This document shows, piece by piece, positions 895 to 2,851 of a DNA stretch of 64,000 nt. The notes under the pieces are model-generated. The model was not told the origin of the DNA. It ran no database searches and saw nothing but the letters and a program-made list of their open reading frames with translations. Every line of letters begins with the position of its first letter. Positions within the stretch are counted from its first letter, which is position 1. Both the position numbers and the translations under genes were made by a program. Origin of the DNA: an uncultured delta proteobacterium (GTDB taxonomy: Bacteria > Desulfobacterota > Desulfobulbia > Desulfobulbales > Desulfurivibrionaceae). The DNA is taken from the NCBI GenBank assembly GCA_903869265.1, contig CAIPYE010000004.1, positions 62,001 to 126,000 of the forward strand, in the 5' to 3' direction.

Positions 895-1302
895 CTAGGG
901 GTTTACAACATACCAGACATCCTTCACCCCTTGTCCGGTGGTATCCCCAGGGTTCTTGTCCCCGACAAAATAGTACAGGGGCATGCCCTTGTAGGTCGTC
1001 TGTTTCTGGCCATCGGCGCGGGTGATGGTTGCAAAATCCTCGGCCTTTAGGCCATCCTTGGCAGCCACGGCCTCACGGAAATAGAGGGGCCATTTTGCCA
1101 CGCAATCTCCCTCGCAGGCGCTCTTGCCGGGGCTGTCCTTCTTGAAAGAATACAGGGTCATGCCCTTTGTATCGACCAGGAAGCTGCCGATCCCTTCCTT
1201 CTGCGAGACCTTGACCGCATGATGATCAGCCAGACAAACTGTCGCGGTCAGCAACAGTCCCGCCAAAAACGCCACGGTGAACATGCTGGTAATGCTCTTC
1301 AT
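895..1302 (-). CDS. Secreted repeat protein of unknown function (Lipoprotein_15 / COG4315 type)
   Basis: A 135-residue protein with an N-terminal signal peptide (MKSITSMFTVAFLAGLLLTA, cleaved near ACA/LADHH). The mature part has two copies of the short repeat typical of the PF03640 family, each built around G-M-x-L-Y and W (GMTLYSFKKD...WPLY and GMPLYYFVGD...VWYVV). One Cys pair (CEGDC) sits in the first repeat. The start was set at the ATG at 1302, which has a GAGGGG ribosome site 6 nt upstream; the open frame extends 19 codons further without such a site. The family is widespread and periplasmic or secreted, but its biochemical role is unknown. It is monocistronic with its own terminator. 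Confidence 0.8.
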   Translation of the reverse strand: MKSITSMFTVAFLAGLLLTATVCLADHHAVKVSQKEGIGSFLVDTKGMTLYSFKKDSPGKSACEGDCVAKWPLYFREAVAAKDGLKAEDFATITRADGQKQTTYKGMPLYYFVGDKNPGDTTGQGVKDVWYVVNP

Positions 1303-1506: not shown

Positions 1507-2796
1507 CTATTTCACCGTGACGCGTTTGGTGCTCTCGTGGAAGAGGAACTTGCCCTTGCCCACTTCCAGCGTGGCCAGTTCACCGCCGGCCGGCAGATAC
1601 CATAGGCTCACGACCACGTCCAACTCCTTGGCCGTGACGTTGCGGACCTTCTTGCCGTCTTGCTCGATATCCTCATAGGGGAAATTGATTTCCATGGTCT
1701 CGGTCCGAGTTTGTCCAGGCTGCAAGGCGGTATCCCGCAGCATGCCGGATTTGCGGTGCGGCCCGTAGACCATCTTGTCGCCCCTGCCCTTGGCCGGGGA
1801 TTGGGGCATGTAGATTTTTTGTTGGTTGAACACTTCCTTGCCGTCTTCGGTTTTCGCGGTCACATCCAGGACCAGCCGGTTGGGAGACGGTCAGCCATCC
1901 GGGACGCGGTGGCCCGCATGACTGGTCATTTTTACCGTCAACACTGCGGTCGGCACCGAGTCGCCCACCTTGGGCAGGAAATAATAGCCGCGCGCATCAA
2001 CGTCAACCGTGACGGCGCTCTTGGCCACCGCCGGGTCACGATATGCGGGCATGAGATGGCCGAGGCCGTCCTTTTTTATGTGGCAATCCTGACAGGTCTC
2101 ACTGCCGCCTGAGGGCACATAGGCGTGGAGATAGCTGCCGTAGAGGGTGGCGCACTGGGTCGGCTCCGCCAGCTCGAAATTCGGGCCAAGACCGTGGCAT
2201 TGGCCGCACATGATCGATTCCGGCAGGGTGGCGCTCTTTTTGAGTTTTTTGAACTTGGTGTCCGGATGGTCGCCGTCCTTGCTTCCATAGACTGCGTTCG
2301 GGTCGATTTCGCCGTCGGTCCACTTGTGGATCAGAGCTTTCTGATTGTGGCAGATCAGGCAGTTGATGCCGACCTTGGCCAGTTGTTTTTTGGCCTTCTC
2401 GTCGCCCGCCGCGCCATCGATGGCTGCCTGGGCGATCTCCTTGGCCACCGCATCGGTGGCGTCCTTCAGTTGGGGCAGGTGGCACTTGGCACAGATCATC
2501 ATGTGCTCCACGGTGAGATCCTTGACCTCCTTTGCCCCGGAATAGGTGTACTCCTTGAGCAGCCCGTCCTTGATCGTGCTGGCGATGGTTGCCATGGTTC
2601 GGGGAGAACCGATCAGGGACGTGGCATGGAAGGATTTTTCCCACTCCGTAAAGACCTTGGCGTGGCATTCCTTGCACGAGGTCACATCATACATCTTTGC
2701 CAGTTCATCAATGGAATTCGCCTTTTTCCCGGCGGCATTGGCCGCAGGGGGCAGCAGGACGATTGCCGCTGCCAATCCGACTCGTAGCAGCTTCAT
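1507..2796 (-). CDS. Periplasmic or extracellular multihaem cytochrome c, in-frame TGA (candidate selenocysteine)
   Basis: Read through one in-frame TGA (1891-1893), this encodes 429 residues. It starts with a signal peptide (MKLLRVGLAAAIVLLPPAANA) and carries five CXXCH haem c motifs: CKECH, CAKCH, CLICH, CGQCH and CQDCH. The C-terminal ~190 residues lack haem motifs and look beta-rich. The TGA lies in GHRVPDG-[TGA]-PSPNRLVLDV. Codons before and after it are in the same frame and both sides look like normal coding sequence, so this is not a frameshift. The options are selenocysteine, a Cys codon (TGC/TGT) mutated to TGA, or a sequencing error. The ATG at 2796 was chosen because it has a GAGGAG site and begins the signal peptide. 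A role in electron transfer outside the inner membrane follows from the haem motifs. Confidence 0.75.
1841..1893 (-). promoter_or_regulatory. Possible SECIS-like hairpin just after the in-frame TGA
   Basis: Directly after the UGA the message reads CCGUCU, which is perfectly complementary to AGACGG 38 nt further on (1885-1890 with 1841-1846). Inside lies a bulged hairpin (1866-1883): CCA/UGG and ACC/GGU stems around a GGCU loop. Bacterial SECIS elements are hairpins just downstream of UGA with a G at the start of the apical loop. This one fits loosely; its loop is about 13 nt from the UGA, slightly closer than usual. This is an inference from pairing by eye. Confidence 0.35.
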
Positions 2797-2806
2797 GGGC
2801 CTCTCC

Positions 2807-2851
2807 TCATCTGATTTTTTCTCTTTGCAACAGTTCCGCTCCTTGACGCAC
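2807..2851 (-). CDS. Possible 14-residue leader peptide upstream of the cytochrome gene
   Basis: A GTG-started mini-ORF (MRQGAELLQREKIR) has a strong AAAGGAGG ribosome site about 10 nt upstream, better than that of the cytochrome itself. Its TGA stop overlaps the GAGGAG site of the cytochrome (TGAGGAG). That geometry would allow translational coupling. It is too short to exclude chance. Confidence 0.3.
   Translation of the reverse strand: MRQGAELLQREKIR

Follow-up and report, generated by a model that had tools for sequence, protein, structure and literature searches.

A stand-alone extKL-type gene from an uncultured Desulfurivibrionaceae bacterium encodes a pentahaem cytochrome c with an in-frame TGA that is almost certainly read as selenocysteine

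In a 64,000-nucleotide stretch of DNA from an uncultured delta proteobacterium of the Desulfurivibrionaceae (hereafter the window), we found a multihaem cytochrome c gene with an in-frame TGA. The gene is a genuine selenoprotein gene of the already known ExtKL/MccSep family, and not the founder of a new family. Comparison with homologous genes leaves little doubt that the TGA encodes selenocysteine (Sec), and we are highly confident in predicting that the product is a Sec-containing pentahaem cytochrome of this family. ExtKL-type selenoproteins were first proposed in 2007 from a stop-codon screen (PMC1914089), were discussed in the 2018 paper on ExtI (PMC5877670), and appear in a 2026 review of prokaryotic selenoproteins (PMC13188914).

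The gene lies on the minus strand, which was absent from the description in the first-pass annotation, and encodes 429 residues with the TGA taken as U, ending in TAG (Table 1). As that annotation had it, the sequences on either side of the TGA, the only one inside the frame, belong to a single reading frame, with GHRVPDG directly before it and PSPNRLVLDV directly after. The signal peptide and the five haem motifs that it placed ahead of the TGA are also there: the CXXCH motifs start at residues 41, 102, 146, 197 and 235, and the residues ahead of the first of them, MKLLRVGLAAAIVLLPPAANAA, look like a signal peptide by eye. Its count of 128 codons after the TGA needs a small correction, as the coding sequence is indeed continuous but consists of 127 sense codons, the 128th being the stop. 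Comparison with five close relatives gave dN/dS values of 0.11–0.18 before the TGA and 0.13–0.24 after it; purifying selection acts on both sides. The frame is thus far beyond chance, since one family is matched end to end, the TGA codon is shared by 53 homologues, and dN/dS is low on both sides.

The family assignment comes from the NCBIfam profile NF040886 ("multiheme c-type cytochrome (seleno)protein ExtKL"), which has a curated cut-off of 250 bits. The product scored 538.4 bits (9.1e-162), twice the cut-off and over the whole protein, with residues 18–428 of 429 aligned to profile positions 25–422 of 423. The features of the family are found here as well, namely five CXXCH motifs, a C-terminal non-haem domain and a TGA after GHxxPDG.

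Table 1. Positions of the extKL-type gene, its parts and two further genes in the window
Feature	Position	Strand	Basis or remark
extKL-type gene, pentahaem c-type cytochrome selenoprotein	1507..2796	-	NF040886 match; 12-sequence alignment, 70–92% identity
Start ATG; stop TAG of the extKL-type gene	2796-2794; 1509-1507	-	
In-frame TGA, codon 302 (predicted U302)	1891..1893 (1893-1891)	-	Column of Sec325 in PDB 9wt8
SECIS-like hairpin	1856..1875	-	Frozen synonymous codons, folding against recodings, covariation
Stretch with five CXXCH haem c motifs	2080..2676	-	Window coordinates derived from motif residues
C-terminal beta-sandwich domain, about residues 262–429, with predicted Sec302 in the loop after GHRVPDG	1510..2013	-	Model strands
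Predicted N-terminal signal peptide, residues 1–22	2731..2796	-	By eye
Ribosome binding site GAGGAG, 6 nt before ATG	2803..2808	-	Read from sequence
Small secreted protein, like the C-terminal part of SCO0930 family lipoproteins	895-1302	-	120 bits, cut-off 275
ExtM-like multihaem cytochrome, 592 residues	55199-56977	-	308 bits, cut-off 800

Alignment of the homologues, which the first-pass annotation had put forward as a check, showed Sec or Cys exactly at the site in question. The codon is TGA in 53 genes (the window copy included) and TGT, for Cys, in four. The homologues represent numerous families of the phylum as well as Nitrospirota, and stem from independent assemblies. In the tree the Cys copies do not group together, which requires at least three changes between Sec and Cys, although two of these copies are long branches.

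The same annotation had suggested a search of the genome for selA, selB, selC and selD, and indeed all of them are present, tRNA-Sec included. The scores were 615 bits for selA, 370 bits for selB, 379 bits for selD and 72.5 bits for tRNA-Sec, which carries the anticodon UCA (TCA), each over its curated cut-off. The selD gene (L029, genome C14:1869-2792, minus strand) contains one in-frame TGA near its N-terminus, in the context VKAAG-TGA-AAKLSPGDL, and from this sequence the selenophosphate synthetase SelD of the genome itself looks like a selenoprotein. ExtKL and selA co-occur in 44 of 44 genomes, yet this is weak evidence, because selA is found in 359 of the 395 genomes of the phylum anyway.

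A potential hairpin with the core GGUC-CUGGAUGU-GACC lies inside the coding sequence, with 17 nt between the UGA and the core stem, and we take its position and G-containing loop to fit bacterial SECIS elements. Among the 53 Sec genes, codons for the same amino acid were identical at a level of 0.78–1.00 at codons +6 to +11 after the TGA, compared with 0.24–0.62 elsewhere in the examined stretch. We also compared the folding of the native RNAs with that of recodings in which the protein was held constant and codons were drawn from the gene's own usage, and obtained a mean z of -2.1 for the 53 Sec genes and values about 0 (-0.45 to +0.73) for the four Cys genes. Across 50 distinct sequences, 90.7% of cells were paired and three of the six pairs had changes on both sides; only 0 to 2 of 500 shuffles did as well on each measure, but these shuffles ignore relatedness, so the frozen synonymous codons are the stronger evidence. 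The hairpin of the window copy alone folds unremarkably (z -1.2); the constraint is visible only by comparison across species. An Rfam scan of the window at curated thresholds returned one tRNA only, and no SECIS. Frozen synonymous codons, compensatory changes and absence from the Cys homologues are together the signature of a SECIS element, and we predict that the hairpin serves as one. Selenocysteine, which the first-pass annotation had offered as the best explanation of the TGA, is thus supported by the Sec machinery, the Sec and Cys homologues, the SECIS-like hairpin and a homologue in the PDB with a U325A mutant. None of the three grounds for refutation that the annotation had set speaks against it, the one on a wrong base being judged from the independent assemblies.

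An AlphaFold model of the protein has the strands of the beta domain, with many blocks at pLDDT 83–91, and a loop around residue 302 under 50; built on 12 sequences only, it is poor in the haem region. We propose that the product is an ExtKL/MccSep-family pentahaem cytochrome c located in the periplasm, in which UGA codon 302 would be decoded by SelB and tRNA-Sec, directed by the downstream intragenic hairpin. The selenol would then sit in the motif GHRVPDG-U at the junction of the haem domain and the beta domain. The five haems may relay electrons to it from periplasmic or membrane carriers, and the selenol could act as both nucleophile and redox centre in reducing a chalcogen-type substrate. 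Our best guess for that substrate is selenite or tellurite, by analogy with the ext operon of Geobacter sulfurreducens, and we hold this guess to be evenly poised between right and wrong. In that organism, deletion of extI impairs the reduction of both compounds, and on preliminary data ExtKL was called the candidate selenoprotein for this reduction (PMC5877670).

The extKL gene stands alone here and is not part of an extHIJKLMNOPQS operon. Its neighbours in the window are a lipoprotein-like gene, a gene for a TerC/YkoY-like membrane protein and an aminotransferase gene. The SCO0930-like gene lies directly downstream, and a partial match to such a protein also follows ExtKL in L011 and L092 (same genome region). 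A search for ExtI across the genome found none; the same search gave matches in 17 of 43 ExtKL-bearing genomes, 10 of them over the cut-off. The best ExtM-like protein of the genome is a distant match (Table 1) and no bona fide ExtM. Its gene adjoins an NAD+ synthase gene, with a radical SAM maturase-like gene about 0.7 kb away, and this locus is not a true ext operon. In another genome (G152), the same method recovered nearly a complete ext operon, with ExtH, ExtI, ExtM, ExtN, a Rieske protein, ExtP (below the cut-off), ExtQ and ExtS around ExtKL.

It is conceivable, though we lean against it, that the protein is a selenoprotein but that the stand-alone copies in the genus serve a periplasmic redox reaction other than selenite or tellurite reduction. 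The protein might, for example, act on another chalcogen or sulfur species or protect against peroxide, and its Sec would then be the catalyst or a haem ligand. The lack of ExtI and of a true ExtM in this genome would fit such a role, as would the low share of ExtKL-bearing genomes with ExtI over the cut-off and the presence in several genomes of two or more ExtKL copies that belong to separate clades. Furthermore, Fe(III) oxide reduction by G. sulfurreducens is unaffected by deletion of extHIJKL (PMC5877670). On the other side, the operon partners could be non-homologous.

The relationships of the gene bear on its history. In a comparison of loci L014–L019 with L090–L091, the window copy is approximately 70% identical to copies from Nitrospirota, whereas its identity to copies from the family to which the organism belongs is only about 40% (39% to G002 and 42% to G004), a pattern that suggests horizontal transfer or ancient paralogues. 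A search of a plasmid collection gave no match. More tentatively, and rather doubtfully, a stand-alone lineage made up of Desulfobulbales-like and Nitrospirota copies at about 70% identity might have left the ext pathway for selenite and tellurite, its Sec–haem pair being used in another periplasmic redox reaction. Two loci (L095 and L098, in genomes G053 and G228) hold tandem ExtKL paralogues, one copy of which reads GH-PDS-ISSN or VSSN and has neither Sec nor Cys. At a third locus (L097, G311 C11), a Cys-type copy has an in-frame TAA within the family match, and a Sec copy is present elsewhere in G311; L097 is perhaps a decaying gene.

Returning to the TGA itself, we consider it very improbable that the locus consists of two genes, extK and extL, translated in succession, with translation ending at the TGA and starting anew for the C-terminal part. 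Such a view goes back to the Geobacter locus, first annotated as GSU2937 and GSU2936, and to the 2007 study, which found neither a SECIS nor a non-Sec homologue and left "a highly conserved operon" possible (Fujita 2007; PMC1914089). However, the Cys homologues form one continuous protein, no stop other than TGA occurs at the site within the homologue set, a SECIS-like hairpin is present, and the PDB entries of the family are a single chain with Sec325, plus the U325A mutant. The chance is practically negligible that a Cys or other sense codon was changed by one base, through a sequencing error or a recent nonsense mutation that left a misread or a pseudogene: TGA is one base away from TGT and TGC, and four homologues do have TGT at the site, but this reading, which the first-pass annotation had named as its other simple explanation, is already refuted by conservation of the TGA among the 53 homologues, whose occurrence in dozens of species excludes a mutation private to this genome and whose independent assemblies rule out a misread base private to this one, while dN/dS is still low after the TGA and the hairpin is present and conserved.

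With the TGA read as selenocysteine, as we prefer, the protein would couple a selenocysteine to five haems, which is an uncommon kind of redox centre, and the locus adds a clear ExtKL member outside an ext operon. The comparative data also supply what the 2007 paper lacked, namely a predicted SECIS element, revealed by the near-invariance of synonymous codons, and Cys homologues interspersed with the Sec genes. A gene caller that takes the TGA as a stop reports this gene as two, a spuriously short cytochrome and an orphan.

Among solved structures, the product matched PDB entries 9wt8, 9wta and 9wtb, "Multiheme cytochrome c selenoprotein (MccSep)", with an E value of about 1e-137; entries 9wt9 and 9wtc are its U325A mutant. 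This homologue was crystallised both in the Sec325 form (9wt8) and in the mutant form (9wt9). The alignment covers residues 23–428 and places Sec325 of MccSep in the same column as predicted U302. The two proteins are not close copies, though, as MccSep has PTPNR after its Sec, like many other homologues, whereas the window copy has PSPNR (compared by eye). Our literature search found no paper describing MccSep. The ExtKL protein of G. sulfurreducens (GSU2937-GSU2936) likewise has five haem motifs and a single Sec codon, which separates its haem part from its C-terminal part (PMC5877670, PMC1914089), but its gene sits in extHIJKLMNOPQS, in contrast to the solitary window gene in a genome without ExtI. 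Lastly, the best fold match of our model was the pentahaem cytochrome c552 of Thermochromatium tepidum (PDB 5ze8). This protein resembles ExtKL in its five haems and in a similar motif, HAMPTG-A, that runs into a beta stretch, but it has Ala in place of the Sec of ExtKL. The similar plan is a hint that ExtKL arose when an older cytochrome fold acquired Sec, but both the profile match between the two (E 0.0044) and the model are weak, so that their kinship is suggestive.
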